64,000 nucleotides of DNA from Chondrosia reniformis. Its lineage: Eukaryota; Porifera; Demospongiae; Chondrillida; Chondrillidae. A program made the translations under genes and the position numbers. Each line of letters opens with the position of its first letter. The stretch's first letter is position 1. A model generated the notes under the pieces. It did not search any database and had not been told where the DNA came from. It saw only the letters and a program-made list of their open reading frames with translations. This document shows, piece after piece, positions 6,784 to 38,700 of the stretch. Location of the stretch: NCBI GenBank assembly GCA_947172415.1, contig OX359202.1:6000899-6064898 (forward strand), written 5' to 3'.

Positions 6784-8446
6784 ATGGAAAGGAAAAGTAT
6801 GCTACTTCTAAGTCTAATTGGGTTCCTACTGGTACTCTCTGAGGGAGAGAGTACTAAAGAGTGTACCTACTCTGAATTACAGGAATCCCTTAATACTACT
6901 ACCAACAAGGAAAACTTGAGAAATACCTTCTTCCCAGAGAACAAGGCACCTCCTCTACAGGTCATTGTCAGCTACACCTTCAGCAATAAGAGTGGTCATG
7001 TATATGCCTGGATTTGGACACCCATGTACCTGATTGTGGGTGCTCGCTATCTGGCTGAGACAGGTCTTGGCATTCCTGTTATTAGTCTGATAAAGAGGTT
7101 CAAACCAGATTTGCTAGATCAAATCCCTTTTATTAAAGTTGGGTCAGTAAATATTAATCTTGAATTAGCATGCGACCCTGATCCTTTAAACTGTGAAGAC
7201 AAGAATCAGTATAATATTGAAAAGCTTACTTCATTGGTAAGTTATGTTTACACAAGAATATACCTAATTGATTTCATAATTAATGATTACTTGCACACGT
7301 TTTCTTTTAATCCAGATATAAATTATGTATACACGCATAGTTTAAAATATACCATATATTTCAGTAACTGTATATTTCTTATATTAGCTCAAGGAGTATG
7401 CGAATAAAGAGGACTTTGAATGTGTCAAGTTTAGCAGTGCTGTGTATAGTACCAAGTATAACTCACATAAAGAAATGTTGAACCAAAGTTTAAGTGATAA
7501 TAGGGCAAATATTATATTGGTGGTATTATTAGTCTATACCGTCTTCCTTTCAGTGATCATACTGCCTTTAATGTACCATCTCATCAAAGACTACTTTACA
7601 AAGTTGAATGAGTGGCTATTGAACACAAACTATCCATTTTATGAAGTATTTTGGGGATCCATAATTATTCTCTTTCTCTGCAATGTCTACTACACTGTTA
7701 TTGCTTGTTTGCTATGGGGATCAGAAATTACCTGGTTCAGTTTGGTGATCCCCAAACCCAAAATTTTCCTAGGAGTCTGGCTCTCATTAATTTTCCTTGG
7801 CCAGCTGGTAACATCACTTCTCATTCCCAAAAGCACTGCTCTTCCTACACCCAGGTTCTTGACAGTCTTCTTAAAAGCCTGTTGTTTCAAATTCAATGAT
7901 ACCAAAATCAATTCTGCCATCCAAACAGTGGCAATCTGGATTGTATTGCTCTTCATTCATTATCACTCTACAGTTGCATCGTTAACCATAGTATGTGTTG
8001 TAGCTGATCCTGTAACTGCATCAACGTGGCTATTGTCATCTCTTTTCTTGAAGATTGCAGGAGCATGCATATTTGGAGGATTGTTTGCCTTTGATCGAGC
8101 ATGGATAAGGGATGAGACGCTGAGGCTGACACATCAGGGAGCAATGAGGCAAACCCTTTATGTTGTATCCTGGTCCCTCCCCTTTATTGGTGGCTGCCTA
8201 CTGAGTGCTGGTTTGTGTGGCTTGACTTTCATGGACAAAGACACTCAACCAAAGTTTGTTTCTAGTATTGCTTCCTTCCTGCTTGCACCACCAGCCTTTG
8301 TGTTCCTGGGTTGGCTCTTAAGGTACTTTGTGAAGAAGCTATTCATGATGGTGTCTCCAGGATCTGGAAGGACAGGGGAAGACAGAGATGATGATAGCTA
8401 CACTATCATCTCATCTGATGAAGAAGAAACAGAAGGAGAGAATTAA
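6784..8446 (+). CDS. Multipass membrane protein with secreted-type ectodomain, copy B
   Basis: Exons 6784-7236 and 7388-8446 encode 503 residues. The gene has the same architecture and intron position as copy A, in opposite orientation, so A and B form a large inverted duplication (divergent, 4.7 kb apart). The start ATG is preceded by tgc and followed by the same signal peptide as A. An open frame runs a little upstream through AT repeats, but that extension is not credible. The second exon includes the LSLIFLGQLVTSLLIP segment shared with A. The acidic C-terminus ends EETEGEN, differing from A only in the last few residues. The function is unknown. It is a lineage-restricted family as far as I can tell. 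Confidence 0.86.
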
Positions 8447-9290: not shown

Positions 9291-11013
9291 TTACTGTAGA
9301 TCTTCATTTTCTATATGTATATCTTCTGTTTCTTCTTCATCAGATGAGATGATAGTGTAGCTATCATCATCTCTGTCTTCCTCTGTCCTTCCAGATCCTG
9401 GAGACACCATCATGAATAGCTTCTTCACAAAGTACCTTAAGAGCCAACCCAGGAACACAAAGGCTGGTGGTGCAAGAAGGAAGGAAGCAATACTAGAAAC
9501 AAACTTTGGTTGAGTGTCTTTGTCCATGAAAGTCAAGCCACACAAACCAGCACTCAGTAGGCAGCCACCAATAAAGGGGAGGGACCAGGATACAACATAA
9601 AGGGTTTGCCTCATTGCTCCCTGATGTGTCAGCCTCAGCGTCTCATCCTTTATCCATGCTCGATCAAAGGCAAACAATCCTCCAAATATGCATGCTCCTG
9701 CAATCTTCAAGAAAAGAGATGACAATAGCCACGTTGATGCAGTTACAGGATCAGCTACTATACATGCCACAACAAATAAAGCATTTGTAGAGTGATAATG
9801 AATGAAGAGCAATACAATCCAGATTGCCACTGTTTGGATGGCAGAATTGATTTTGGTATCATTGAATTTGAAACAACAGGTTTTTAAGAAGACTGTCAAG
9901 AACCTGGGTGTAGGAAGAGCAGTGCTTTTGGGAATGAGAAGTGATGTTACCAGCTGGCCAAGGAAGAGGAAACTTAGCCAGAGACCATAAAAAATGTATA
10001 TTTTATCTATAACCAACTTCACCCAGGTAATTTCTGATCCCAATAGAAAACAATCAATAACAGTGTAGTAGACATTGCAGAGAAAGAGAACAATTATGGA
10101 TCCCCAAAATACTTCATAAAATGGATAGTTTGTGTTCAATAGCCACTCATTCAACTTTGCAAAGTAGTCTTTGATGAGATGGTACATTAAAGGCAGTATG
10201 ATCATTGAAAGGAAGACAGTATAAACTACTGCAGCGCTAAGTGTAACTTTAAAAATGTAATCAAAGTATTGTTGTATTAGCATCTCCCTTCTTGAGTTGT
10301 ATTTTGAACTGTACGCTGCACTGCTAAAGTGTACAAGCGTGAAGTTCCCTTCGTGGGCGTATTCTCTGAGCTAGTGCAGAAAGATAAAGAATACAGTAAA
10401 TGAATAGCCAAAAAAACATTGTTCCTGTAGATAATTATAGTTTACCTGCAGTTAGGAAACACATGAATAGAATATACTACAATACTATGAACCATTACTT
10501 AGAGTAGGGCTACAATACATATATGCGTATATATACGTAACTTACCAATGAAGTAAGCTTTTCAATATTACACTGATTCTTGTCTTCACAGTTTAAAGGA
10601 TCAGGTTGGCACGCTAATTCAAGATTAATATTTACTGACCCAACTTTAATAAAAGGGATTTGATCTAGCAAATCTGGTTTGAACCTCTTTATCAGACTAA
10701 TAACAGGAATGCCAAGACCTGTCTCAGCCAAATAGCGAGCACCCACAATCAGGTACATGGGTGTCCAAATCCAGGCATATACATCACCACTCTTATTGCT
10801 GAGGGTGTAGCTGACAATGACCTGTAGAGGAGGTGCCTTGTTCTCTGGGAAGAAGGTATTTCTCAAGTTTTCCTTGTTGGTAGGAGTATCAAGGGATTCC
10901 TGTAATTCAGAGTAGGTACAGGGCTTGTTAGAAATGACAAGAGTAGCGTCTTCCATAGCTCTTGCTGATAGTGATAGTACAAAGGTAACTAGAATCAATG
11001 ATAGAAATATCAT
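9291..11013 (-). CDS. Multipass membrane protein with secreted-type ectodomain, copy C
   Basis: Exon 1 is 10546-11013 and exon 2 is 9291-10370, giving 515 residues. The ectodomain core and most of the membrane region are nearly identical to A and B. Three stretches differ sharply: the signal peptide and first residues (MIFLSLILVTFVLSLSARAM), the stretch from just after the intron into the first membrane segment, and a short loop before the third membrane segment (LVIDKIYIFYGLW against LVIPKPKIFLGVW). Sharp alternation of identical and diverged blocks suggests gene conversion. The tail is again acidic. No family was recognised. Confidence 0.85.
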
Positions 11014-11449
11014 ATTGTAGTCTGAATCTCATACACTGTGACTCAGCACTTTTGAAAGGGGTGAAAGTGTGAGCATATATTTAGAAAACAATGCAATTGA
11101 ATGTGAAACAATCATCTTAAGCTTGTTATATTAATGTGTACATTACCCCCAATCATATGCTTGTCATATTCTCTCATTGTTCCTGGTAAACTGAAGGTTG
11201 TATAAATTTCTACTTCGCATTCACATGCAATCAATATATTCACATTCAATGTTTTGGTCATTCTTAAGTACATACATTACATCTCTGTAGAGAATGAATA
11301 CACTTCTATAAAATATATAGTTTCTTTTATACTGTATGATATACATATACTGTAATAATAATTTATTACAATATTAGAAAACAATCTCCAAGAACTTATT
11401 ACACAATTAAAAATTAGAAAGACTTGGGTATATACTTAGCACTAGACAG
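11014..11449. other. Short AT-rich spacer
   Basis: This stretch lies between the start of copy C and the stop of the PAQR gene, both on the minus strand. It is AT-rich with scattered T/A runs. No coding frame, RNA gene or repeat family member was identified. Confidence 0.5.
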
Positions 11450-12634: not shown

Positions 12635-15600
12635 ATGATATCTTACCTTTGGCTTGTTATCTTCTTCATGCATGTACCACTTACAGCTTGTGCTGGACCT
12701 TGTCTTGGAGAGGAACATGGCTGGGTTGCATTACCTTCACGTAGCAGTATTTTTGCAAGCAGAATTGGCCATTCTTTAGGAAGACTTTACTCCAGGAGAG
12801 ACCTCCAAATTAGTGATTGGTTATACAATGAAACAGGTTCTATATGGAACATAATTTCCTGTTCAGTGAAGGAATAGTATGTACAAATTGTTCTCTGTGC
12901 TTTACTCCTACAAAATGTACAGGACAGTGTGTTTACATTGACTTGCTTTCCTTGACTCTTCTTAATAGCACTTGTGTAACAGGTTTTATATTCAAAGACA
13001 ATAATGTCAACTCTGCACTTGTACTCACTAATGAAGACTTTACTAATGAAGCTAATGAACTCGAAAATTGTAGCATTTTAGCAAAACCCTGCCTTGTGCA
13101 GATGGAAAGGTTAAACTTTCAAAGGAGCAATTATGTATGTGATTTTGTCTTCCAAGTCTATAGTTTCTTATTACCGTTTCTGTCCTTTAGGAAATAGACA
13201 AAGGTGGTTCACTGATGGTGGAAGTACTGACAAAATTTGTTTTCTTCCAAAGTATGTCTTTTTACATATACATATCTGGAAATGAAACATATATTTCTAT
13301 AGAATCATTTTAATAATCTCTTCGTATTGTTTGTATTGTTTAGAATACAACTACGTATATAATACATTAACTACTTGTGTATGCATCTACATGTACTAAT
13401 TCAGATGACACAATCGAAGAAATTGAATCCTTAAAAGCAGTCCAATCTCTATTACCACAGGACTATTTGCAGACGGTCGTGAGATTTGTCAGTTTATAAA
13501 TTGTCATTTTAGCTAGGTTTCATTCTGCATGGTACTGTATGTGTAGTATATACTCCAACTTTACATGCTGTGTAATGGGTATATTTAGGAAAACCCATAT
13601 CTCACGGGGTTTCAGACTGGTAGCAAATCCTCATTCCTTTCACTGACAACATCTCTTCATATATGGCAAAAGGAAGGTCTTCAGGTACACCAACTTATGC
13701 ATTCCCTTATCAAGCAGCTGTCTCTCTGCAATATAAAACTGCCAATATATGTCATTAATATTCAGGGTGATACAAGTGTGACATTTCAACTAGCCAATCA
13801 GAATGTCTCTTGCCATGACAACAGTTCCATAACCATCAATCTTCAATTCAAATGTCCAGAAGGGAAAGCTTTGAGGTTTCTCTATCCAGTGAGTAATATA
13901 TAGAAGGTTAGATCTGAATATCATTTCCCTGCCTATGGTTGACATGCATATATTAGTTCCCCTATAGGCTCTTTTTACAGAATAGGCATATAGCATGTAG
14001 GAAAATGGTATATTAGATTTTTCATATGAAGCAAAGGAAACATACCAATACGTAGAATAAACTATATAATATGAGATTTCTGCAACTTATATACGGCTTG
14101 GGGCCGGCCTATAGAGTTTTGGATGGGGATATACTTTTCATGCTAACTTTTCTTCCTTTTTCCACTGCATGGGCAAGACAGCTGTTTCTGGGAATTCTGC
14201 CTTTCACCGGCGACTCTGGGAGTCTTTGTCATCTTGGTCCTTCAAGTTCTTAGCTCTCTGTGCTAAATTTAGGGTCTTATATGTGCAATGTACATTGAGA
14301 GTGCGTATATTTCTGTAGCCTCATATTGATGTCAACCGTGTCTGTAGGTAAGGAAAGGTGCTGTAGATTATTGTCCTCCTTATCTAAATAGCAAAGCACA
14401 CCCCTGTATACATGTGAAGGTAGAATGTCTGGCAAGTTGTACAATCCTTCAGTCTATTTTCTTATGGCAGTAATTAAACACGTCATACTTGTAATAGTGT
14501 CTACAAGATAAGGTACAGTAAATAACAGTTTCTTCTTCTCCTATAATCTCTCTCTTTCATTATATACATTTGTGTTAAAGCATGGACATACTGTAACTGT
14601 ATACTTGTAACCTAGCAACAACACTGACATAAGCAGATACCACAGTGGTTGCCATTCAATAGGACTTTAATTGGTCCCCCAGTCATGATAAGACGTTAAA
14701 CCTGTCAAACATTTCCTGCTGTAAAGTAGATATTGAAAAAGCACGGCCATTTTATCCTCCTAAGGTCTCTCTGTTATCCTAATTTGGTATACTTATTATA
14801 GCAGACGTAGTCAAGCCACTATATAGATATTGTTAAGAACACTTTTTGTTAAAACTCATCTTTTAGTTTGATCTCTTATAAGGGTTTCATCATTTATTGA
14901 CTATATGTAGGATGGAGAATTCAATGTAACTGGCCAGTGGCTCAAGATACCGGTAGGACACAAACCCACTTCTTCCCAGTAACATTGCAGCATGTTATGT
15001 AATGTTTTCATTTTAGATAAACTACCGCCCACCTTCCAGTCTAGGACTAGAAGTGTCCGAATCACCACATGTGTACAATGTCGACCCAACTGACCCTATA
15101 AATAGCAACATCAATTATGTCCTGAAAGTATGTATATATTTATATGTGCATATACATTTGATATACGTATGATAAGTATGTCTTCCAAATGTGTCAAACT
15201 TAAAGCTAGGTTCATCTTCTAATCTTTTGAGCATCTGAAGACACAGTTTGGTTTAAAAAATCTTCTGTTGGAAGTTCGTAACCCAAGGGTCTACTTTATT
15301 GACTGTGGACTGGAAATCTGGATATGTTGCCCTCTTCATAGAAGAAGATTTAACTAAACCTGTGTCTTTAGATGCTTAACTTATTTAAAGGTATGTATGT
15401 ACATATGTATACATTTACAAGAATACTTTCAAAATTGTGTGTACATCCATACATTAGCAATGTAAGGATAAAGGTAGCCGGCAGAAATGTAACTGTACTA
15501 CAGAAATGAGCAATTCAGTTGGTTCTAATCATACAGACTGTATGGAAAAGGTAAAACCCTTTAATTAGCTATCCATAAGATTCCTAACATGTCCATGTAC

Positions 15601-19500: not shown

Positions 19501-22500
19501 CTGGTCCTCAGTTATAATCCTATTGTGAATCTGAGATTGTTTACAGCAATTATAGGTACATGAAATTGTGTAGTTGTTTTAATATTATTATTTTGTTCCC
19601 CTTTAGCAGTAGTAAAGTTCTTAGTTTGTACTTTCCTCCCTATTCCTTTTGTCTCACCATACGTATAAAGAATCCTCTAAGATCTATGATGCTATACTAA
19701 GATATTAAGCTGTTAAATACAATTCTTTTGGTCAAATTGATGTAGAGAAGGACAGAAAATATTACGTACAGTACTAACTATATATACATATACAGTAACT
19801 ACATATGTACCAACTTACTATGCATGTTAGCTATTGGCATATGTACAAACTATACAGCAAATACCACAATTTATAAGACAATGTGAGGTACCAATAGCAT
19901 GTTAGTGTAGGTTACTTCATTGCTAATGACCCTATACTAGGCGTCATCTTATAATATGCAACCCCATCGCACCCACTTCCTTACAGTACCCGTGTGGTAT
20001 GTAGTCTTGAGTGTAGGGGTATCCTCTATGGAATACTGTTACTAGGATACCTAATTCAAAGTTCAGTATCGCAGGGAGATGACATATGTGTATAGAAATG
20101 TCGTCAATGAATTAGAACACTAAAAAGGAGTGGACATACTTGACATTGTATTTATAACACAAATTCATGAACTTATCATGCCACTAATTTCCTTTAACCT
20201 ACCTCCTTGTGAAAGATTACAAAACTTGGTTGAAGTTTTCACTGTTTGTCAAATCTATTTGGTTGATCACTTGTTCCCATAGCAACCATCTGTAGTATTT
20301 TATATATTGCAAGGCTACCTACGTATCAATATTATTCATTACAGATTATTAGCTTATACAGAGAAAAGACATGATTCTTGTTTCTCTGTACATATACAGG
20401 TTTCAAGTATCCCTAAGTTTGATGTCACATGACCGTCACATGTGGCAGTTGGTACCTGCTGCCTCAGGAGTCCTGTCTCTTGTAACACCTGAAGAGATGG
20501 AAGAGGTTAAACTCCTCAATATGGTCTCAAGCACCAAAGGATGTATAGTAGTCTCAATTAGCTGGAATAGAAGGAGTGTCAGTATCAGTTTCAATACTGA
20601 ATCCACATTTATTCACTTTTGGAATGAGACCATTACTGATGTCTCGTTCAAAATATCTGGCATCCTAAAGCAATTTTATCTGTACTCTAGACCTGTTGAC
20701 AAGGATGACATGGTAGAGACTAGAAAGGTCTTTGATGAGACGTTTTCTCCTTCACTCTGGAAGATACTATGCCTTTGTGATATGGACTATGCTGACTGTT
20801 TGAACCGTTATATTACAGTTGCATCTCATTTAAATGGGTTAGCATGTCTGAATATACGTATGTTAAATGAACTTGCATGGCTATAGGCAATTTTGTATCA
20901 ATTAATTTAAGCTACATTGTATTTTCCTTTTTATACAAAAGGATTTGTGGTATTATGAAAGACATTTTACAAACACCTTTTAATGTGTACTAACTATATT
21001 ACTTACATCTAATCTTTTACTTTGTAGTGAACATAGGTTGGCAAAAAGACAGCTTCTTAGCCCAGGTGAAAACTCTTCCAGCAGTGCTGTAGAAAGTACA
21101 TCATCAATTGTTGAGACTACGTCATCCTCTTCAGTACTGTTAGCCAGTACATCTAGCTCTACTTTATCTGCTGTGGAAACCTTTTCCAGCAGTGCTGTAG
21201 AAAGTACATCATCAATTGTTGAGACTACTCCAGTATTTTTAGCTAGTACATCGAGCTCTACTTTATCTGCTGTGGAAACCTTTTCCAGCAGTGCTGTAGA
21301 AAGTACATCATCAATTGTTGAGACTACTCCAGTATTTTTAGCTAGTACATCGAGCTTTACTTTATCTGCTGTGGAAACCTTTTCCAGCAGTGCTGTAGAA
21401 AGTACATCATCAATTGTTGAGATTACTTCAGTATTGTTAGCTAGTACATCGAGCTCTACTTTATCTGCTGTGGAAACCTTTTCCAGCAGTGCTGTAGAAA
21501 GTACATCATCAATTGTTGAGACTACTCCAGTATTTTTAGCTAGTACATCGAGCTTTACTTTATCTGCTGTGGAAACCTTTTCCAGCAGTGCTGTAGAAAG
21601 TACATCATCAATTGTTGAGATTACTTCAGTATTGTTAGCTAGTACATCGAGCTCTACTTTATCTGCTGTGGAAACCCTTTCCAGCAGTGCTGTAGAAAGT
21701 ACATCATCAATTGTTGAGACTACTTCAGTATTGTTAGCTAGTACATCAAGCTCTACTTTACCTGCTGTGGAAACCTTTTCCAGCAGTGCTGTAGAAAATA
21801 CATCATCAATTGCTGAGACTACATCTTCCTCTTCAGTAATGTTAGCTAGTACATCGAGCTCTACTTTACCTGAGGAAACTACTTTTATTCCAAGCAGTAC
21901 TGTAGAAATTACATCATCAATCGCTGAGACTACATCATCCTCTTCAGTACTGTTAGCTAGTACATCGAGCTCTACTTTACCTGAGGACACTACTTTTATT
22001 TCAATCAGTGCTGTAGAAAGTACATCATCAATTGCTGAGACTACATCATCCTCTTCAGTACTGTTAGCTAGTACATCGAGCTCTACTTTACCTGAGGAAA
22101 CTACTTTTATTTCAAGCAGCACTGCAGAAAGTACATTATCAATTATTGAGACTGCATCTTCCTCATCAATCCCCATTGTTATAACATCAAGCTATTCTTT
22201 GTCACTAGAGGAAACCATTTCATTCTCAAGTACTGCAGAAAGTACATCATCAATTATTGAGACTACATCTTCCTCATCAATCCCCATTGTTATAACATCA
22301 AGCGTTTCCTCTTCATCACCAGAGGAAACCATTTCATTCTCAAGCAGCAGTGCAGAAAGTACATCATCAATTATTGAGACTGCATCTTCAAGCTTTTCTA
22401 CTTCACCAGAAGAAACCATTTCATTCTCAAGCAGTACTGCAGAAAGTACATCATCAATTATTGAGACTTCATCTTCCTCATCAATCCCCATTGTTATAAC

Positions 22501-25500
22501 ATCAAGCGTTTCCTCTTCATCACCAGAGGAAACCATTTCATTCTCAAGCAGCACTGCAGAAAGTACATCATCAATTATTGAGACTGCATCTTCCTCATCA
22601 ATCCCCATTGTTATAACATCAAGCGTTTCCTCTTCATCACCAGAGGAAACCATTTCATTCTCAAGCAGCACTGCAGAAAGTACATCATCAATTATTGAGA
22701 CTTCATCTTCCACATCAATCCCCATTGTTATAACATCAAGCGTTTCCTCTTCATCACCAGAGGAAACCATTTCATTCTCAAGCAGCACTGCAGAAAGTAC
22801 ATCATCAATTATTGAGACTGCATCTTCAAGCTTTTCTTCGTCACCAGAGGAAACCATTTCATTCACAAGCAGCACTGCAGAAAGTACATCATCAATTATT
22901 GAGACTACATCTTCCTCATCAATCCCTATTGTTATAACATCAAGCTTTTCTTCTTCAGAAGAAACCATTTCTTTCTCAAGCAGCAGTGCAGAAAGTACAT
23001 CATCAATTATTGAGACTGCATCTTCAAGCTTTTCTTCGTCACCAGAGGAAACCATTTCATTCTCAAGCAGCACTGCAGAAAGTACATCATCAATTATTGA
23101 GACTGCATCTTCAAGCTTTTCTTCGTCACCAGAGGAAACCATTTCATTCTCAAGCAGCACTGCAGAAAGTACATCATCAATTATTGAGACTGCATCTTCA
23201 AGCTTTTCTTCGTCACCAGAGGAAACCATTTCATTCTCAAGCACTGCAGAAAGTACATCATCAATTATTGAGACTACATCTTCCTCATCAATCCCTATTG
23301 TTATAACATCAAGCTTTTCTTCTTCGTCACCAGAAGAAACCGTTTCTTTCTCAAGCAGCAGTGCAGAAAGTACATCATCAATTATTGAGACTGCATCTTC
23401 AAGCTTTTCTTCGTCACCAGAGGAAACCATTTCATTCTCAAGCAGCACTGCAGAAAGTACATCATCAATTATTGAGACTGCATCTTCAAGCTTTTCTTCG
23501 TCACCAGAGGAAACCATTTCATTCTCAAGCAGCACTGCAGAAAGTACATCATCAATTATTGAGACTGCATCTTTAAGCTTTTCTTCGTCACCAGAGGAAA
23601 CCATTTCATTCTCAAGCAGCACTGCAGAAAGTACATCATCAATTATTGAGACTGCATCTTCAAGCTTTTCTTCGTCACCAGAGGAAACCATTTCATTCTC
23701 AAGCAGCACTGCAGAAAGTACATCATCAATTATTGAGACTGCATCTTCAAGCTTTTCTTCGTCACCAGAGGAAACCATTTCATTCTCAAGCACTGCAGAA
23801 AGTACATCATCAATTATTGAGACTACATCTTCCTCATCAATCCCTATTGTTATAACATCAAGCTTTTCTTCTTCGTCACCAGAAGAAACCGTTTCTTTCT
23901 CAAGCAGCAGTGCAGAAAGTACATCATCAATTATTGAGACTGCATCTTCAAGCTTTTCTTCGTCACCAGAGGAAACCATTTCATTCTCAAGCAGCACTGC
24001 AGAAAGTACATCATCAATTATTGAGACTGCATCTTCAAGCTTTTCTTCATCACCAGAGGAAACCATTTCATTCTCAAGCACTGCAGAAAGTACATCATCA
24101 ATTATTGAGACTACATCTTCCTCATCAATCCCTATTGTTATAACATTAAGCTTTTCTTCTTCAGAAGAAACCATTTCTTTCTCAAGCAGCAGTGCAGAAA
24201 GTACATCATCAATTATTGAGACTGCACCTTCAAGCTTTTCTTCGTCACCAGAGGAAACCATTTCATTCTCAAGCAGCACTGCAGAAAGTACATCATCAAT
24301 TATTGAGACTGCATCTTCAAGCTTTTCTTCGTCACCAGAGGAAACCATTTCATTCTCAAGCACTGCAGAAAGTACATCATCAATTATTAAGACTACATCT
24401 TCCTCATCAATCCCTATTGTTATAACATCAAGCTTTTCTTCTTCGTCACCAGAAGAAACCGTTTCTTTCTCAAGCAGCAATGCAGAAAGTACATCATCAA
24501 TTATTGAGACTGCATCTTCAAGCTTTTCTTCATCACCAGAGGAAACCATTTCATTCTCAAGCACTGCAGAAAGCACATCATCAATTATTGAGACTACATC
24601 TTCCTCATCAATCCCTATTGTTATAACATCAAGCTTTTCTTCTTCATCACCAGAAGAAACCATTTCTTTCTCAAGCAGCAGTGCAGAAAGTACATCATCA
24701 ATTATTGAGACTTCATCTTCATCTTCAATCCCCATTGCCACAACATCAAGTGTTTCTTCACAGTCTTCTGAGAGAACCATCGTAATTACATCATTAGAAA
24801 CAGTATCCTTCAGTTCTTCCATCTTATCCAGTACAGAGGTATCCTCCAGTCCTCCTCCTCCAGAATCATCATCTTCATCACCTCTCTTAACCACCTTATC
24901 TATTCAGTCCAGTCAAGTGCTGACACCTTCCTTTGCTTCTAGCTCCAGTTCTAGTGTTATACAATCAGCCAGCCCCAGTCCCAGTCCCAGTCCCAGTCCC
25001 AGTCCCAGTTCCAGCTTCAGTCCCAGCACCAGCTTCAGTCCCAGTTCCAGTTTCAGTCCCAGCCCCAGCTTCAGTCCCAGCTCCAGCTTCAGTCCCAGCC
25101 CCAGCTTCAGTCCCAGCCCCAGCTTCAGTCCCAGCTCCAGCTTCAGTCCCAGCTCCAACTTCAGTCCCAGCCCCAGCTTCAGTCCCAGCTCCAACTTCAG
25201 TCCCAGCCCCAGCTTCAGTCCCATCTCCAGCTTCAGTCCCAGCTCCAGCTTCAGTCCCAGCCCCAGCTTCAGTCCCAGTCCCAGCTTCAGTCCCAGCCCC
25301 AGCTTCAGTCCCAGTCCCAGTCCCAGTCCCAGCCCCAGTCCTCTGGTATGTCCTAATAACACTGAATATTGTTCCCCATTAAGTTCTTGTCTGTCTGTGG
25401 AAGACTGCCCCACTGGACCAGTCCTTCCATTGAAGGTCTTGAGTGTTGGAGATGTTCTTTTAACAGGAAAACTACAGTCTTTAGATAACACTGGACTTCA

Positions 25501-28500
25501 GTATAGAATGAACTATCACAACCCATCATTAAATGGTGGAACCATCCAGGCTATGATCAGGAACACAGGTCTACAGGGATCTGCTGACATAATAACGGAA
25601 GCTTCCTGTGCCTGTCAGTTGATAATGACACTGTCCAACACAATTATGTGGATATCCAGGCCTAAGATAACAGTTATTGTGGAGTTATTTGCAAAAAGTG
25701 ACTGTAGTCAAGCAGTTGATTGTAATGAGCCTTCAGCCTACTTGAATATCAGCACATTTCCTAATCTACTGATTTGTAACTTTAAAAACACATATTACTG
25801 TCTCCAAGAGCTTACCTTTAGTGAAGGAAACTTCAGCATGCCTGTAATATCAATTACGGCATCTTTAAGCAATATGTCTGAGATTGCTTCTGAATCAGTT
25901 ACGTTGAGGAGTGCAAATGAGGTAAATATTAATGTAAATGAGCTATCTTGGTCTCAAGTTGGTGTTAGCTATCCTAATGAACCGAGTAGGTTTGATCTGG
26001 TCGGTAACTTCACTCCTAGTGTCAGTGGATATACAGCAGTTTGCAGTTGTCCAAATTCATCCTGTGAAGTGAGATCTAACTCATTTTTCCTTATCTCAGA
26101 TAAATTCAATGAAGAGATAGTTGTAACTGGCTTGAGATTGCAATCAGCTAAAAGTGACGATTTGTTAAGCTTGGAAATCCAAACAAACGAGACTTTTGTA
26201 AACTGTTCAATTCAAAGTATTTCATTAGAGGATGGCATTAAACTGACTGTCCAACCCTCTACAGCCGTCCTGAATGTTACTAATAAAAGTGTTGTAAAAG
26301 TGTTTGGATACGCTAGTAAATATAAACTTTTAAATGTCGCACCTCTAAATTACGAGAGGTTGTCCTTTGATTTGCTGGCATTTGCATTGTATTCAGATGG
26401 AAGTATTTCCAAATCTGCAGTTTCTTGTTCCAGCTCAAATAATGACATCCTTAAGGTTGAAACAAATTGCTCCAGTGTCTATTTCCAGGGTGATGAAATG
26501 GTTGGTGGTAACGTGAATGTCACTATTTCTGCTGGTAGTCAAACAGCAGTGTTGCAGTTCGGAGTGTGGGTACCTGTTACTATGAAGGTAGAGGTGGATG
26601 ATGCAACACTTAATTTCATTGGCCATTCCTGTGATCCTGTCTACCAGGAAACCCAATTGACACTTTTTGCTACCTTCAGCAGTTTTGCAGCTGATGTAGA
26701 TGTCACTTGTCAAGTGGATGCATCAAAAGCTCTTAAATATAATCCTACAATAGTTAATGTGACCAGTGAATTGAAGGTGATTGGTCTATCCATTGGCTCA
26801 ACTGAAGTAAACGTCACACTTCTGTCTGGTATCACGGCCTCTATTTCTCTCACAGTATCAGATGAATCTGTCGAAGCCAAGTATATTGATACATTTGTGA
26901 TTTCTGATATACAAATGGCCCTGAATAGCTCCGTAAATGGCAGTATTGACACAGTTGACATTACCCTAAGTAATGAACTGCAATATGCTGATATTAGAGG
27001 CATTGTAATTGCCGTTGTGGTCTTTAATGACGGCAAAAGGATGATTGTTCCAGCAGATCATACTAAAATTACTTACAACGAAGGACCATTTGCCATCAAT
27101 AACCCATTCCTAGTACCACTTCAGAAAGGTGAAGGTAGTCTCATAATCGATTGGTCCTGCTTGGAGCAGTCAGCTTCAGCTGTAGCTGAAGTGAATATTA
27201 ATCTTGATAATCCGCTGAACTTGGTGATTCAGCTCCAAGACCCAAGTGAGCAGCCAATCATTAGCCAAGCCTCAGATTTTGCTGCCATGCAGTTGAATGT
27301 TGCTTCATTTTTACTGTTTAAAGTATTTCTAACATATCCTGATGGACACATTGCAGATGTCACAAAGTATGCAGATACAAGTGTATCCAACAGTACTGTA
27401 CTACAGGCTCTCTGTGAAGATGTTTGTAATGTCACTGTTAGGAGTAATTCACCTGGTAACTATCAGCTCTTGACAACATATGCGAACTATAACCTCACGG
27501 CTAATTTCAAATTTACTGTTGTTGAAACTACTGAACTGAATGTGTCTATCCATCCCTATCCTGAATACAATAATTCTCACACCGTTACAGTTGATACTGT
27601 GTATCTGATTAGTGAGGGAAAGTACCAATCTGCAGTTCTGCTGGCCAATGCTGTCTTGAGCAATGGCGACAGGGTCCCAGTCCCACTTGATGTAACTGAC
27701 ATTGATAGTAGTAGTGGGGTCGAATTGGTTCCATTGGACAGTTACTCGGAAGTAATCCATGTAGTAACTGATGTGTCCACAGCCTCACTCTCACTCACTG
27801 TCAAAACCAATGTTGCCCTCACAGACACTATCCGCTTGACTATCTCCAAGAATCGTCCAATAATCACAAGCATATCAGGTTGCCAGACGCGTGAAGTGAA
27901 CAACAAGACTGTCATAGATTGTGTGCTAGAGTTGGAACACACTACTGTGACCAGTCTGTATGAAGATGGTGAGCCTTTGTATGTCTCCCTATTGACTTTT
28001 GACCACTCTGATGAAGTCACTATAAGTGACGAGACTGGTGAAATTGTGTCCCTTAGAAATCATCATAGGGAGATCAGTATAACAGTGTACTCGTCTGCTG
28101 ATATGGCAGTCAGTAGCACACTAAAGTATTGGCCAAATCGGTTGCCTGGAAACTATGAAATTGATATTGGCTTTAAGCAAGGCAACCCCTTTAGTAATGT
28201 GGCAGTAGATGACATCTTCACTGTACCCATTTCATTCACACCTGGAAGCGTGCCTGTTGGTATTTTAGAAGTAGAAATTCAGGTTAGTGGTGATGCCATT
28301 GAATTAATGGATGCAGAACCGGGGTCTCAATGGAGGGATAGTTTCTTTCTATATGAAAAGGAATCAAATGGGAATGAAACGACACTGGTTACATTGGGAG
28401 GCATCTTACTGGAAGGTGTAAGAAGTGAGACAGATGTCCTGGCTTATTTGAACTTCAAGGCTAAATCAGCCGGCAGTGTGTCCTATAATGCTACAGTTTT

Positions 28501-31500
28501 GTATGCAACAGAACCTGATTTCTACACCAGCAATGGAGTTGAAGATGTGTCATCTCCAGCTGCCTCGGTTACACAATCAATAAGTGCCAGCAGAAAGAGG
28601 AGGCAGATGAACCTATTGGGTGAGAGAATAAGCTTTGGAGAAGGAACTAGACATAGAAGACAAGACATGTGTGAGCCAATACCAGGAGATATTAATAGGG
28701 ATTGTTTGGTGGATCTCCGTGACATTGTTACTATTCAATACTATACAGTGTATCAGGTTAATAACTTTGCATCATCGGAGGGTTCTGATGTGATGAGTAA
28801 TCCTGAATTCGATAATGTTAATGCAACATTACTAGCCAATGATCTTGATCAAGATGGAATTATATCAGTGTCTGATTTAGTGTATGCAGAAAAGCTATCA
28901 CTTAACGAGATAAATACTATTGAGGACATCACTTTCTTGCCCAATACCACCTCTCAGTGCACGGTTATTTCAGTGTCAGGCTGTGTATTTAATAGTGAAG
29001 GTCAGCCTGCAAGTATTTCTACAAGTGTAGTTCTAGTGTATTTGTCTGCCAATAACTCAGATTTACATCTGTCCCTCTCAAATAACTCTACATGGAAATC
29101 CGAGGGATATGTGAGCTTATCATCCACCCAAAATGGCAGCATTCTTGTGGCTAATTTAACTTCTGAGAACTCATGTACTAGGTTTAGAATACAATCCAAT
29201 GAAGGTTTCCAAGCTCCTCAAGGAAGCATAAGTGTTAATATCTTACATGGGATTATTGATACAGATAGTGGATCAAATGTAATAATTGGAGAGAGTTTTG
29301 CTGTTCTGTCTGGTGCCGCCCCCTCTGACTCCACTTCTGGTGTTGTTGAAGAAAGCATTGACATAGGTTATGAGGTGTTTGGCAGTTCCAATATTCTTCT
29401 ACCTTCCAAACTCATTCCATTGCATGTCATCAGATGCTTAGAACCAGCTGTCCCTTCCTCAGTTAGTCCTACTAGTCTATTTGCATCTACCTCTTCTGCT
29501 GTAATCACCTCTTCTGCTGTAATCACCTCTTCTGCTCTAATCACCTCTTCTAGTGTTGTACAAACAAGCAGTAGTACCTCTGGGCCAGAATCATCTTCTA
29601 CCAGCCAACCAGAATCTTCATCTAGCAGCCAACCAGAATCTTCATCTAGCAGCCAACCGGAATCTTCATCTAGCATCCAACCGGAATCTTCATCTAGCAT
29701 CCAACCGGAATCTTCATCTAGCAGCCAACCGGAATCTTCATCTAGCAGCCAACCGGAATCTTCATCTATCAGCCAACCGGAATCTTCATCTAGCAGCCAA
29801 CCGGAATCCTCATCTAGCAGCCAACCGGAATCTTCATCTAGCATCCAACTGGAATCCTCATCTAGCAGCCAACCGGAATCTTCATCTATCATAGAAGCTA
29901 CTAGCACATCAATTCCTTTAGCAGTGATTTCCACTAGCACTAGCACTAGCCTCAGTTCCACTGCAGTCCCCACTGAATCTGGACCACCAGGAACGACAGC
30001 TGGGTCAGGTTCAGGAGTAGTTACAATAGCAGCTGTTGTGGCAACTCTTGTTATTGTTGTTGTGATAATAGTATTCATAGTTGTGATGTTTTGCGTGTTC
30101 AGAAAAATGAGAATGAAGGGAGGCTACAAGCCGAGTGAAGTGAGACACAACGGATATAGAAATGAACATACGGGTCATGACTATTTCTTTCAACAAGAAG
30201 AGCAAATAGTGAGTCCTAATGACTTCCTCATCTTGTTGATAATTAACGGGGATGAATATTTGATAAAGTCTTATTGCCTTTTCTTGTGACAAATTTACCT
30301 TTTTATTAGTTGTGTGGTCACTTAAATTTTAGACTTTAAAGGTAGTAAAAAGGAGTACATTTCAGTATTTATCCCCGTGTTCTGGAATGCTTCTAGAACT
30401 TCTGTATTATATTAGACCCAGGCCTAAATCATCGCACAATACTTTATAAGCGTTATATGTACACAATGTAGTGTCTTGGGTCCTTGATTATCAGCTCATT
30501 TTGATACAAATGAAATACAATCTATGTATATACTGTTTGTACAAATCTGGTGTTGTATATATGTACATACTCGCTAGGCATTGTTTTTATTTTCAAAATT
30601 GTTTTATTTACCTTCCAGGAAATGAGCCCCATAGATATAGTTCCCATGGCTCCCCATGATAACGATGAGAGATTTGAAGATACTACCCAACCCAATTTAG
30701 GATACATTAATCAAGCCTTCTCCATGACAGAGAAGAGTGGAAGTATTCCTAGGCCACACCACGCCAACGGGCATTCAAAACAAGTAAGTAGACTTTTAAA
30801 TACAAACTTTTCTGTCAATTTGAAAGTATTATTTCTTCATCTAACATTTTGCTATCTCTGTAGGTAAATGGGTCTGTTGCCATGGAAATGAATCATGTTT
30901 TTCATACATCAACCCCTGCTCGTGCACATCACTCTAGTGCACCGTATGATGATGAAGAGGTAGATTTATTCTTTGATGAATATACTACTAACCCTTACTT
31001 GTCACTTGGCTTGACACCAGCCTCCCAATTGTCCCCTGAACACGACTTTGGTTATTTCCCGGGACTTCCCCCACCCATCTCGCCAGCTATTAATGACTCA
31101 AGCTACAGTATATCAGTGGATGGTCCACTAGTTACTGGAAATCCGGTTGCTTTACAAGATCTACCATCTTCTAATGGTAGTGTTCGTCGTGTGGTCAGAA
31201 CGGGTCCACGTGACTTAAAAGAACTGTCACTTTCACGGACCAAACTGGAGACTGTACCAGAACATTCAGATTCTAGTTCCATGGATGTTGCTTATAGAAG
31301 GGCCTCCAAATCTTCAGAGGGTTTTAAATGGTCTCAGGAAAATGAAAATCCCTCCAAACCAGGAAGCCTATCACGATTTTCCCCATCAGAAAACCAGGAT
31401 CTCATATTTCCCTCCGCATCGTTATCGTTAGGGCATGGCTCCCAAACTTCAAATACTAAAGGAAATAAAGGCATTTTGCCTTCTAAATTACCAGTCACTA

Positions 31501-32012
31501 ATGGAACCACAAGTCCTCAGGATGGGCATATGCTCCCTTCCCCTTATCATAGAACAAATGACAACACACTCTCCTTTCCTGTGACTAAACCTAGAATTCT
31601 TGAGGACATGGAGCCGGAGAGAGATAATCCAAGCATTATACAACAACCACTTTGGGCCTCTGAACCAGCAGCCCAAAGAGAAAGATATAGACAAATGATT
31701 GTTGAAGAAGAAAGATTAAAGCGTAGGGAACAGGAGAGGCAATCCTACCGAAAGGTAGGACCTGACGTGGAATTTTTTAATGAGCTCTATGGAGGAGGTT
31801 CTCACACTTCAGACCTATGGTCTCCTCAACCTAGAAGCTCAACATCACATTCATCAGGATCAGCAAACATTGTACGATCTCCATCACTACCACCACAACC
31901 ATCTAAATCAGGAAAGAGAATGTCAAGCCCTGCTAGTCCCATCAGTCCACTTGATTATTGTGGTCAAACAACTGATGAATTCTCTTCATACGACCAAGTA
32001 ACTTCTCTGTAA
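16549..32012 (+). CDS. Giant mucin-like TMEM132-related membrane protein with cohesin- and dockerin-like domains
   Basis: The model has eight exons: 16549-16716, 16882-17122, 17955-17992, 18913-18995, 20400-20837, 21028-30208, 30619-30783 and 30864-32012. The total is 3,820 residues in frame. Order: signal peptide ([18 protein letters not shown]); unrecognised ectodomain; Ser/Thr repeats; Pro/Ser repeats; Cys motif ([20 protein letters not shown]); TMEM132-like Ig/BIG domains; cohesin-like domain; two basic cleavage-like sites; dockerin-like EF pair; Ser/Gln/Pro/Glu repeats; TM helix near 30018-30110; tail of about 420 residues. Resemblance to TMEM132 is strongest at [20 protein letters not shown] and [24 protein letters not shown]132 proteins are cell-surface adhesion-type molecules containing a cohesin homologue. 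The weakest splice is 20837 to 21028 (donor GGGTTAGC), so the first five exons could belong to a separate gene. Confidence 0.75.
17150..20390 (+). other. Large introns of the giant gene (AT-rich)
   Basis: Between exons 2 and 5 only two small exons (17955-17992 and 18913-18995) are supported. The rest is AT-rich DNA with no recognisable gene or RNA. Around 19190-19310 the words tctgtggtttcgca and acagaaatgac are repeated, perhaps pieces of an unknown repeat. Confidence 0.4.
21070..24950 (+). repeat. Coding tandem repeats: Ser/Thr-rich mucin-like region
   Basis: There are two successive repeat families inside one exon. From about 21070 to 22190 the unit is about 33 codons ([15 protein letters not shown], then a linker with LASTSSSTL). 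From about 22190 to 24780 the unit is 29-38 codons ([20 protein letters not shown] and SSPEETISF, alternating with an insert containing SIPIVITSS). Neighbouring units are almost identical at DNA level, including silent sites, so the array is young or kept uniform by conversion. The Ser/Thr density is typical of densely O-glycosylated stalks. Long reading frames on the opposite strand (20980-22176, 22192-24894) and in shifted plus frames are by-products of the repeat. Confidence 0.9.
24958..25345 (+). repeat. Coding tandem repeat: Pro/Ser (SFSPSP) hexapeptide array
   Basis: An 18-bp unit coding SFSPSP or SFSPSS is repeated about 20 times, flanked by SPSPSPSP runs. It forms a stiff, probably glycosylated spacer between the mucin-like region and the Cys-containing globular part. 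A shadow frame reading PVPAPAS on the same strand is not a gene. Confidence 0.9.
25900..28150 (+). other. TMEM132-like Ig/BIG domain region
   Basis: Translated residues show repeated beta-sandwich patterns with long alternating hydrophobics. Segments close to TMEM132 include [17 protein letters not shown] and the following VTMKVEVDD, the stretch with [17 protein letters not shown], and [18 protein letters not shown] further BIG-like pattern is [20 protein letters not shown]. Cysteines are present in several blades and N-glycosylation sites (NVT, NTS, NGS) are common, as expected for an extracellular protein. Confidence 0.65.
28185..28565 (+). other. Cohesin-like domain (within giant protein)
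   Basis: The segment [20 protein letters not shown], then [20 protein letters not shown], followed by [20 protein letters not shown] and YLNFKAK follows the bacterial cohesin pattern. That pattern is a V.VP..F..VP..G strand, a Y/V-D...L strand with a following G, a G...F/I strand, and a .GV.A.I.FK.K strand. No bacterial-style compositional change marks it, so it appears to be an integral part of the animal exon. Confidence 0.65.
28684..28925 (+). other. Dockerin-like double EF-hand domain (within giant protein)
   Basis: There are two calcium loops with dockerin spacing. The first is [19 protein letters not shown] (D1, N3, D5, D9, D12). The second, about 45 residues later, is [19 protein letters not shown] (D1, D3, D5, D12). 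Each loop is followed by one helix, as in dockerins and unlike true helix-loop-helix EF hands. PGD directly before the first loop is also typical. RKRR (about 28593) and RHRR (about 28650) lie between this domain and the cohesin-like domain. Confidence 0.75.
29565..29890 (+). repeat. Coding tandem repeat: ESSSSSQP octapeptide array
   Basis: The 24-bp unit tcttcatctagcagccaacc plus ggaa codes SSSSSQPE. About 12-13 copies lie just before the membrane helix and form a juxtamembrane stalk. Single-base variants (agc to atc) are scattered along it. Confidence 0.9.
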
Positions 32013-35700: not shown

Positions 35701-38700
35701 TAATGCTTCACTGTGTAACATCCCTTTCTTGTTTCTGTGCTTTTTGTGCCATCCCTACATCTTCACTATTTTTGTAGAAAATTTTTATTTTTCTCTAGTT
35801 TCTGTACTTTTTATGGAGCATAAGCTAGGAATTCGATTGTATCATTTAAACCCATTTTGGTGTCGCAATCTTCGACTGAATATGACGTCATTAAAATGGC
35901 GAATTTATCGAGGCTTTGACTCTGGGGCCATGAAAACCGTCATACTCAATAATAGCGTTATCGCTCTCGCTTCTACAAAAGAATACAGCTCGGAAAATTT
36001 GCAATAGTTTCGTTTAACAATTAGTCCAAAAGCTTGTATAGTTTTTTAGTTATGGCTGACGAAGAATAAGAAGAAGAAGAAGAATATGAAGAAGACGAAA
36101 AAGGGAATTTTTAAAGTTTGTTATTTCGCCAGCGGGACATATTCGCTTGCCTTTAATGACTATTTAGAGTATGTATAGTGTATATTTAGCCATACATAGC
36201 CTTGTTTTGTCGATTTTCGGCCTATTTCGGGATTTTGCTCCTATACCGATGTATGGGGAAAACGAAAAAAACCGTGTCATCCCTACATAGGGAGTACTAC
36301 CGTACTCCCTGATACTGTAATACATTGAACATGAACTCCTTTAAATAAATATGTTAATTCCTCTATAAAGTGATAAGGGTTGTTTGTTGTGAACATTGCT
36401 GATGAAGACCTATACGGATTGAAACGTCCTATTATCAATAATTTATGTTGCTGTTGTTCAATAATACCTCTGGATTAATTCCTCTATATGTATATGTAAC
36501 CATCCATATACACATATACGCATTCTGCATGGATACACATATATTTTGCAGGTCTAGTTACCTTGGAAAGTGACGTGTATTCCTTCAGGAGTGCAGTCAG
36601 CGTAATTGCTGCTAATGCCTCGACCCTAGGGACAGAATTAGAGATAATTGCTTGTTCTTCTTGTATGACCATGCTAAATGGACAAGCTTTGGTTGCTGCC
36701 TCAGTTGGACTTAATTCTTCTGTAAGCTAACTATACATACGTACATACAATGTATTTATACTTGATTAATATCTCATTAACTAAACTATATATAGTCAAA
36801 ATTAAATGTACTATTTAATATAATAGGCAGTAATGATATCCTCCAATGACCTGTCAACATTCAAAACTGACCTTAATACAGTGAGTATCAGAGAGTACGG
36901 TAGTACTCTCTAAGTAGAGCTTTTCATAATATAACATGTATTTGTAATATATATACATTATATACTATATTCATTTGATTAGATTGAAAACATGCTAAAC
37001 AATAGTATCTCAGCCATTAATGACTTGGACATAACAACACTGAATGGTAATTACCATGGCATATTATATATGTATACAGCAACTCTGTATACAGGTTTAT
37101 AGTATGTTTATGTGTGTGTTTTTAATATACTTTACTATATACTCTGCTAGCTATACCGGACATAAACACAACAGTCACAGATTTCCTTAATGAGTTAGAA
37201 GGAAGTGTAAGTTTGGTTGAATATCATTATATTTATGCATAATGATGACACTCATCTCTTCTTATGCTTTTCTTATTGAAGCTTCAAAGTCAATTTGATT
37301 CTATCATTTCAACTCTTGACCTACAACTACGCAGAGCTCCAGATCCAGATCAGCCATTTTTGAGATACGACACATTTATTGATCTCTGGTCCGTTCTGTG
37401 TTACTAATGTGTGTACATGTACATGTACATGCGCATGTAAATAAAGGCATACAGGCATAATACATATATATTTACCTTAAGGTATTGCTATGAGTACTGA
37501 TTTAGTGAATTAAATATACATACAGGATATAAAACCTAATTTATTATTCGGCGGACTTTTTATCATTACATCATCTGTCATTCCCCATCGCACATCCTAT
37601 ATATAAACCTGGCTGTATCATTCCCACCTCATCCTTTTGCTGATGAAGACTTTTGTGGTCGAAACGTTCAATAATCTGTGTAAAATTACTGTGGCTGATA
37701 CTCACATGAAATCCACTGATCTTATAATAAATGCAACAATTAAACAAGCCATATCATTTCATACATACCAAGGATGCCAAGGATTCACAGAAGATCAAGA
37801 TAAAGAAAAGACAAAGACTCTCAGGATCATTGATGAAGGATGGAATTCCCAGAAACGGCTGTCTGACCCAGTGGAGAAGAAGATGAAAGAAGGGAAAAGA
37901 AGGAAGAAAAGACTCCTGTATCCTCATCCAAAAGCTCTCTTCAGGTTTAGTTCCCCTATAGGCTCTTTTACAGAATAGGCATATAGCATATAGGAAAATG
38001 GTATCTTAGATTTTTCATACAATATATACATACACTGTATATATCTTGATAAATTCCATTGCATATTGCATATTTCAGGTACTGGCTTGCTGTTTCCACT
38101 TGTGTGATGGTTCTCTTTGTCATATTGATTATTGCCATTGGCCTCATTTTGGGGGGAACACATTACTCATGTAGACGCTGTAGAAAAAGAAAAAGATGCA
38201 GCAATCTTGGTGGGAGAATTCTTCTAATGTCAGTTCAGTAAATTCTGTAGAGAACATGTTTATTAGTACTGCCATCTATTAACTTGTCAATATATATGTA
38301 CTAACTGGACTGCATAAATAATATATGTAAGTATGTTTATATACGTAGTGGAAGTGGAACATTGACATTCACAGCATTTGTTCTCCTGATATGTGCATCC
38401 TTGACTTTCTTTACTGCTGCCAATGGCCAAAGATTTTGTGAACCAGCAATATTTGAAAATGGCCTATTTCCACAAGTTTGTTTCAAATTTTCCATATTAT
38501 GTAATTGTTGCATACCAGTAATACTTGTGATTACAGCACTTTTGTCATTGTTATCTGCATCAATGTAGACACTCGATAATACAGTGTTTAGATTTTCAAC
38601 TGTTCGTACATTTATGAACTTGCTATTTGGTGGAACAGAATTTGGTGATAATCTGCTACAAGCGGCCAATATTACAGGAAGCCGTTTTGAAGACATTTTA

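Follow-up and report, generated by a model that had tools for sequence, protein, structure and literature searches.

A cohesin and a dockerin-like domain on either side of a convertase-type linker in a predicted sponge membrane protein

Can a cohesin and a dockerin stand side by side in one animal membrane protein, and what might such a pair do there? The question is raised by a 64,000-nucleotide stretch of the genome of the sponge Chondrosia reniformis (GenBank assembly GCA_947172415.1, contig OX359202.1, forward-strand positions 6,000,899 to 6,064,898), which is referred to here as the window. A preliminary description, made from the letters alone, had proposed that one exon of this window encodes TMEM132-like Ig/BIG domains, a cohesin-pattern segment, two furin-type basic sites, a pair of dockerin-like calcium loops and a transmembrane (TM) helix. 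Our analysis indicates that the gene most likely encodes a cell-surface glycoprotein of very large size that crosses the membrane once and combines TMEM132-type BIG domains with a cohesin and a dockerin-like domain. All coordinates are positions in the window, and the features lie on the + strand unless stated otherwise.

The cohesin domain occupies 28151-28585, with a matched core at 28196-28510, in good agreement with the segment first proposed at 28185-28565. It was recognized by Pfam PF00963, our own profile and hhalign. In a 243-amino-acid slice, PF00963 matched approximately 28199-28510 with an E value of 2.8e-5 (24.8 bits, cut-off 24.1). Our own profile, built from 150 distinct bacterial cohesins and including no window sequence, matched 28196-28489 with a domain E value of 8.9e-6 and a sequence E value of 4.3e-4 when the 1,378-residue globular part was searched alone. 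In hhalign, the cohesin segment reached 88.6% (E 2.6e-6), the other eight segments of the protein gave 5.6% or less, and 60 shuffles gave 1.4% or less. In a separate test, none of 5,000 shuffles, 4,899 of which gave any score, reached the score of the true segment. An AlphaFold2 model was given 37 bacterial cohesins as its alignment, which partly imposes the fold, and it had a mean predicted local distance difference test (pLDDT) value of 67.3 and a predicted template modeling (pTM) score of 0.65. The best Foldseek match of this partly imposed model was the cohesin 2vo8 (E 3.9e-5); 25 of the 30 matches at E ≤ 0.001 were titled cohesin, four YcnI and one an unnamed interaction module, with TM-scores (template modeling) of 0.40-0.56 by query.

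The dockerin-like domain lies at 28682-28906, where a loop pair had been placed at 28684-28925, and contains calcium loops at 28688-28723 and 28841-28876. Our dockerin profile, made from 61 rows (58 distinct) taken from clostridial and viral contigs and again with no window sequence, matched 28682-28906 with both loops in register (E 1.8e-7 for one sequence); when the window was searched as 1,522 six-frame stretches, no other match fell below E 1. The segment scored 92.2% in hhalign (E 5.9e-7), and the other eight segments 0.3% or less; the maximum among 60 shuffles was 21.1%, reached by one of them. In the separate shuffle test, the segment's score was attained by 0 of 5,000 shuffles (4,913 gave any score). 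Dockerins bind calcium through ligands at loop positions 1, 3, 5, 9 and 12. All 10 of these positions are kept in the window protein, as D, N, D, D and D in loop 1 and D, D, D, S and D in loop 2, and each of these residues occurs at its position among the 58 bacterial dockerin rows, although only two of them share the loop 2 Ser (position 9). In a model given the 58 dockerins as alignment, the repeats had pLDDT values of 90-95 and the insert between them 52-72. Foldseek placed this model nearest to 4uyp_B (E 0.027) and 4dh2_D (E 0.039), with TM-scores by target of 0.72-0.73; no match fell at E ≤ 0.001, and among the 50 matches listed, six were dockerin chains and none was titled EF hand. The two domains were modeled separately, because no joint alignment among 31 trial sets (6 fixed and 25 random) put more than 58% of the cohesin letters in the right place. 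The models agree with the sequence comparisons, but they were built on alignments of bacterial domains.

Several results weigh against these identifications. The cohesin clears the Pfam cut-off by 0.7 bits, in the slice only, and PF00963 was unlisted when the whole 1,378-residue globular part was scanned. Narrow clostridial type I cohesin profiles miss it and only the wider 150-sequence profile finds it, and a phmmer search of the region against the PDB returned no cohesin, only calmodulin at E 1.4. Our own profile listed no match at E ≤ 5 on the full 3,101-residue frame, where repeats dominate. For the dockerin-like domain, Pfam Dockerin_1 (PF00404) gave E values of 0.022-0.24 and at best 15.4 bits, missing its cut-off of 22.9. 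In phmmer of this region against the PDB, the EF-hand-like Asr1131 (E 0.49) stood just above two dockerin-containing entries (0.74 and 0.78). NCBIfam gave no match. The loop starts are 51 residues apart, compared with 32-36 in 13 seed dockerins, which had been chosen by a 26-48 filter. We use the name dockerin-like because the Pfam cut-off was missed, phmmer ranked a non-dockerin first and no Foldseek match reached E ≤ 0.001.

An ordinary Ig domain followed by unrelated EF hands, set beforehand as the refuting outcome, is not favored. EF-hand_1 matched the second loop only and below its cut-off (E 0.21, 11.7 bits versus 25.4), whereas the dockerin profile matches both loops, and the other Ig-like segments of the protein gave no more than 5.6% against the cohesin profile in hhalign. 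A chance match was likewise rejected: besides the 5,000 shuffles per segment, 10 shuffles submitted to Pfam gave neither cohesin nor dockerin. Overall, we are confident that the segments are a cohesin and a dockerin-like domain.

The linker between the two domains, approximately 32 residues long, carries the two basic sites, RKRR at 28592-28603 and RHRR at 28649-28660, both identified by motif. Furin cuts at the pattern R-x-K/R-R. The two sites had been noticed before, and they prove to be the only motifs of this kind in the 2,997-residue ectodomain. When the globular part was shuffled 20,000 times, two or more such motifs arose in 12 cases, and in one case two of them fell within 30 residues. 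Sustained expression of furin has been described for the sponge Amphimedon queenslandica in the available excerpts of PMC6850559. If the linker were cut, the N-terminal chain would have at least 2,525 residues with the cohesin at its end, and 453 residues of ectodomain would stay with the stub. The stub has six cysteines and the cohesin none, and a disulfide from the cohesin itself to the stub is therefore excluded. For comparison, 10 of 82 distinct cohesin frames in prokaryote loci also hold a dockerin, and in seven of the 82, from five genomes, the dockerin lies within 0-3 residues of the cohesin; it is whole in three of these seven tandems and runs off the end of the retrieved sequence in the other four.

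What the DNA itself shows is which domains there are, in what order they come and where the basic sites lie; from this we infer a sequence of cutting, binding and release. A proprotein convertase would cut the linker in the secretory pathway. One product would be the N-terminal chain, approximately 2,500 residues with the cohesin at its end, and the other a membrane stub headed by the dockerin-like domain. The two would then stay associated non-covalently through a calcium-dependent bond between cohesin and dockerin, with the ectodomain held on the membrane stub, and loss of calcium, force or competition could release the pair. We favor this cis latch because the only two basic sites sit exactly between the two possible partners, because the linker of approximately 32 residues gives slack that the bacterial tandems (0-3 residues) lack, and because cutting without a second bond would simply discard the whole ectodomain. 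It is also in keeping with the latch that both domains were found by bacterial profiles free of window sequence and were specific relative to the eight other segments and to shuffles, that all 10 calcium-ligand positions are kept, that so close a pair of furin motifs is rare among shuffles, that a sponge expresses a furin and that the cohesin has no cysteine. The N-terminal chain counts against it: its cysteine count without the missing first exon is odd (23), and a disulfide to the stub from outside the cohesin is thus possible. We lean slightly towards the two domains taking part in cohesin-dockerin binding of some kind, and put forward the convertase-cut, calcium-dependent cis latch itself only tentatively, as a possibility that may well prove wrong. 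The broader picture of an animal receptor that uses a bacterial-type clamp to keep a huge mucin-like ectodomain and to release it upon calcium loss or force appears unlikely in this complete form. If it is correct, the dockerin-like domain would be the first partner to be identified for a cohesin of animals, and a hint at the former ligands of TMEM132 cohesins.

The same domains may act between molecules rather than within one. The cohesin may bind the dockerin-like domain of another molecule, whether on its own cell or on one opposite, and so build a calcium-dependent head-to-tail adhesion or meshwork, which cleavage would switch off by removing the adhesive cohesin; binding in cis or between neighboring cells had both been envisaged at the outset. 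Where only 0-3 residues separate the two domains, as in the bacterial tandems (7/82), cis pairing looks hard, and pairing in trans or with heterologous partners may be the older mode. Adhesion has also been argued for TMEM132 relatives, in the portions available of PMC6030884. However, the cohesin lies far below the N-terminal mucin region, by the membrane-side half of a very long ectodomain, which is a poor site for cell contact, and we consider such a lock in trans rather improbable. Slightly less probable is that the two domains ignore each other and bind other proteins of the host, such as further cohesin or dockerin proteins, or those of its bacterial symbionts. According to excerpts of PMC9012536, cohesins and dockerins of bacteria and archaea usually bridge different proteins; the best bacterial single-sequence scores of the window domains are low (13.8 and 16.6 bits), and a binding specificity cannot be guessed from them.

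The least probable of these readings is that both domains are relics, a beta-sandwich and a calcium-stabilized spacer that kept their folds and lost cohesin-dockerin binding. The remoteness of both matches and the insignificant phmmer matches in the PDB are consistent with such a loss, as are the insert between the dockerin-like loops and the Cys in loop 1, where 45 of the 58 dockerin rows have Gly. By contrast, the retention of all 10 calcium-ligand positions, and of both domains together in the usual bacterial order, argues against it. With both domains in one animal protein, there is a defined pair that can be expressed and measured. Binding would place cohesin-dockerin recognition outside microbes, in the adhesion of animal cells or the release of receptors; if they do not bind, animals would have retained both folds for another use.

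The gene model places this arrangement in a single exon, as had been proposed. A stop-to-stop open reading frame (ORF) of 3,101 codons at 20984-30289 contains the large exon (21028-30208), which is bounded by a splice acceptor before 21028 and a splice donor after 30208, both read off the DNA. The frame is open throughout in the genomic DNA, which makes an intron between the cohesin and the dockerin-like region unlikely. The exon holds the N-terminal mucin-like region, the Ig/BIG domains, the cohesin, the basic linker, the dockerin-like domain and a beta-rich region, and its 3' part encodes a second stalk, the TM helix and the start of the tail. A Ser/Thr-rich region of tandem repeats at 21029-25345 (1,439 residues, 55% Ser plus Thr) begins the predicted chain, and on the opposite strand of these repeats there is a 903-residue open frame (minus strand, 22192-24903), most likely a by-product of the repeats. 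The beta-rich region (28931-29470), between the dockerin-like domain and the stalk, matched no Pfam family and was modeled with low confidence (pLDDT mostly 35-46). The membrane-adjoining second stalk, rich in Ser, Thr and Pro, was assigned by composition at 29444-30019, and a putative TM helix followed by RKMRMK was located by eye in the translation at 30020-30100, as a hydrophobic stretch.

Two further exons complete the predicted cytoplasmic tail of 473 residues, with splice sites read off the sequence: one at 30619-30783, which keeps the frame, and the last at 30864-32012, which by eye ends in -TSL and a stop. We take this -TSL C-terminus (window 32009) to fit the class I PDZ-ligand pattern. 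Regular expressions for the WIRS and RVxF motifs of TMEM132 tails found neither in the predicted tail. The predicted chain has 3,497 residues without the missing first exon; an upstream exon encoding a signal peptide was not found in two scripted searches, and the N-terminus of the predicted chain is incomplete.

Elsewhere in the window, four of 10 neighboring frames scanned by Pfam matched families (GH30, C13 peptidase, HlyIII and JmjC), and Rfam gave 0 matches. One gene pair is present in three copies of mixed orientation (385-1441, 7379-8435 and 9323-10228; also 1597-2005, 6854-7262 and 10520-10920) whose matched arms are 94-99% alike, and is a recent inverted duplication; its frames at 371-1432, 9294-10370 and 10513-11028 matched no Pfam family. 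The short minus-strand frames at 13793-14086 and 37757-38166 share strings such as IPFSYMLYAYSVK, which suggests a dispersed repeat element.

How does this protein relate to the TMEM132 family? Pfam identified Ig_TMEM132_4th at 26309-26575 well above its cut-off (E 3.6e-17, 62.6 bits versus 27). A probable second domain, Ig_TMEM132_5th, at 26621-26872 (E 0.0011, 19.6 bits) and a possible further Ig-like domain, Ig-like_KY, at 27227-27487 (E 0.0011, 19.5 bits) fell below their cut-offs of 28 and 27, respectively. The Ig/BIG domains thus do precede the cohesin as had been reported, the first of them above and the second below the Pfam threshold. The excerpts available of PMC6030884 describe TMEM132-type domains from animals and their close relatives. 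In that part of the paper, a conserved region and a cohesin precede the three BIG domains of TMEM132, coherins, lefftyrins and hedglings, and the TMEM132 cohesin homolog was itself detected only by HHpred. The coherins, lefftyrins and hedglings of sponges and choanoflagellates are described there as having the full set of five TMEM132 domains in unchanged order, together with cadherin domains, and sponge cohesins are therefore already known, as far as these excerpts go (PMC6030884). The window protein shares with TMEM132 an Ig/BIG domain above the Pfam cut-off, the plan of a single-pass surface protein and a cohesin homolog in the family. It differs in that its cohesin sits after the BIG region, whereas that of TMEM132 sits before the three BIG domains, in that regular expressions found no WIRS or RVxF in its predicted tail, and in that it adds long mucin-like regions and a dockerin-like domain. 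The region before the BIG domains (25346-26320) matched no Pfam family and gave at most 0.2% to the cohesin profile in hhalign, although a cohesin as remote as that of TMEM132 may escape such comparisons. Unlike in coherins, no cadherin domain was among the five Pfam families listed at E ≤ 10 for 25346-29480. The suggested kinship with TMEM132 therefore stands for the Ig/BIG domains and does not extend to the cohesin, which is not the family's own, BIG-preceding one (PMC6030884, in the part available). Judged by its predicted domains, the protein is a TMEM132 relative through its BIG domains and is neither a TMEM132 orthologue nor a coherin.

Recent transfer from bacteria was considered and rejected: tblastn, which reaches close relatives only, found no close relative, and of 25 candidate stretches in genome contigs none was confirmed. 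With the same reach, viral contigs gave two stretches and one stretch, none confirmed, and plasmids no close relative; phages gave only 16 records at E 3-6 and no close relative. A dockerin beside a cohesin had been called unfamiliar in this family. No dockerin of a sponge was reported in the entries and passages covered by PMC full-text searches. In prokaryotes, chains with both domains are not new: archaeal proteins that combine a single dockerin with as many as five cohesins appear in the excerpts of PMC9012536. Dockerin-related peroxidases have moreover been traced into protists, according to the text available of PMC4420034. Non-cellulosomal proteins of bacteria and archaea share with the window protein a single chain in which the dockerin comes directly after the cohesin. 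The bacterial tandems differ in their linker, which has 0-3 residues there and approximately 32 with two basic sites here, and the bacterial and archaeal tandems are without TMEM132-type BIG domains. What is unusual here is that the cohesin-dockerin tandem belongs to a membrane protein of animal type and that a convertase-type linker separates the two domains. In Notch-type and GAIN/SEA-type receptors, the chain is cut in two and the halves stay together non-covalently. The sponge protein would share this cut-and-held logic with them and differ in the holding folds, with a cohesin-dockerin bond as the proposed means of keeping the ectodomain in place.

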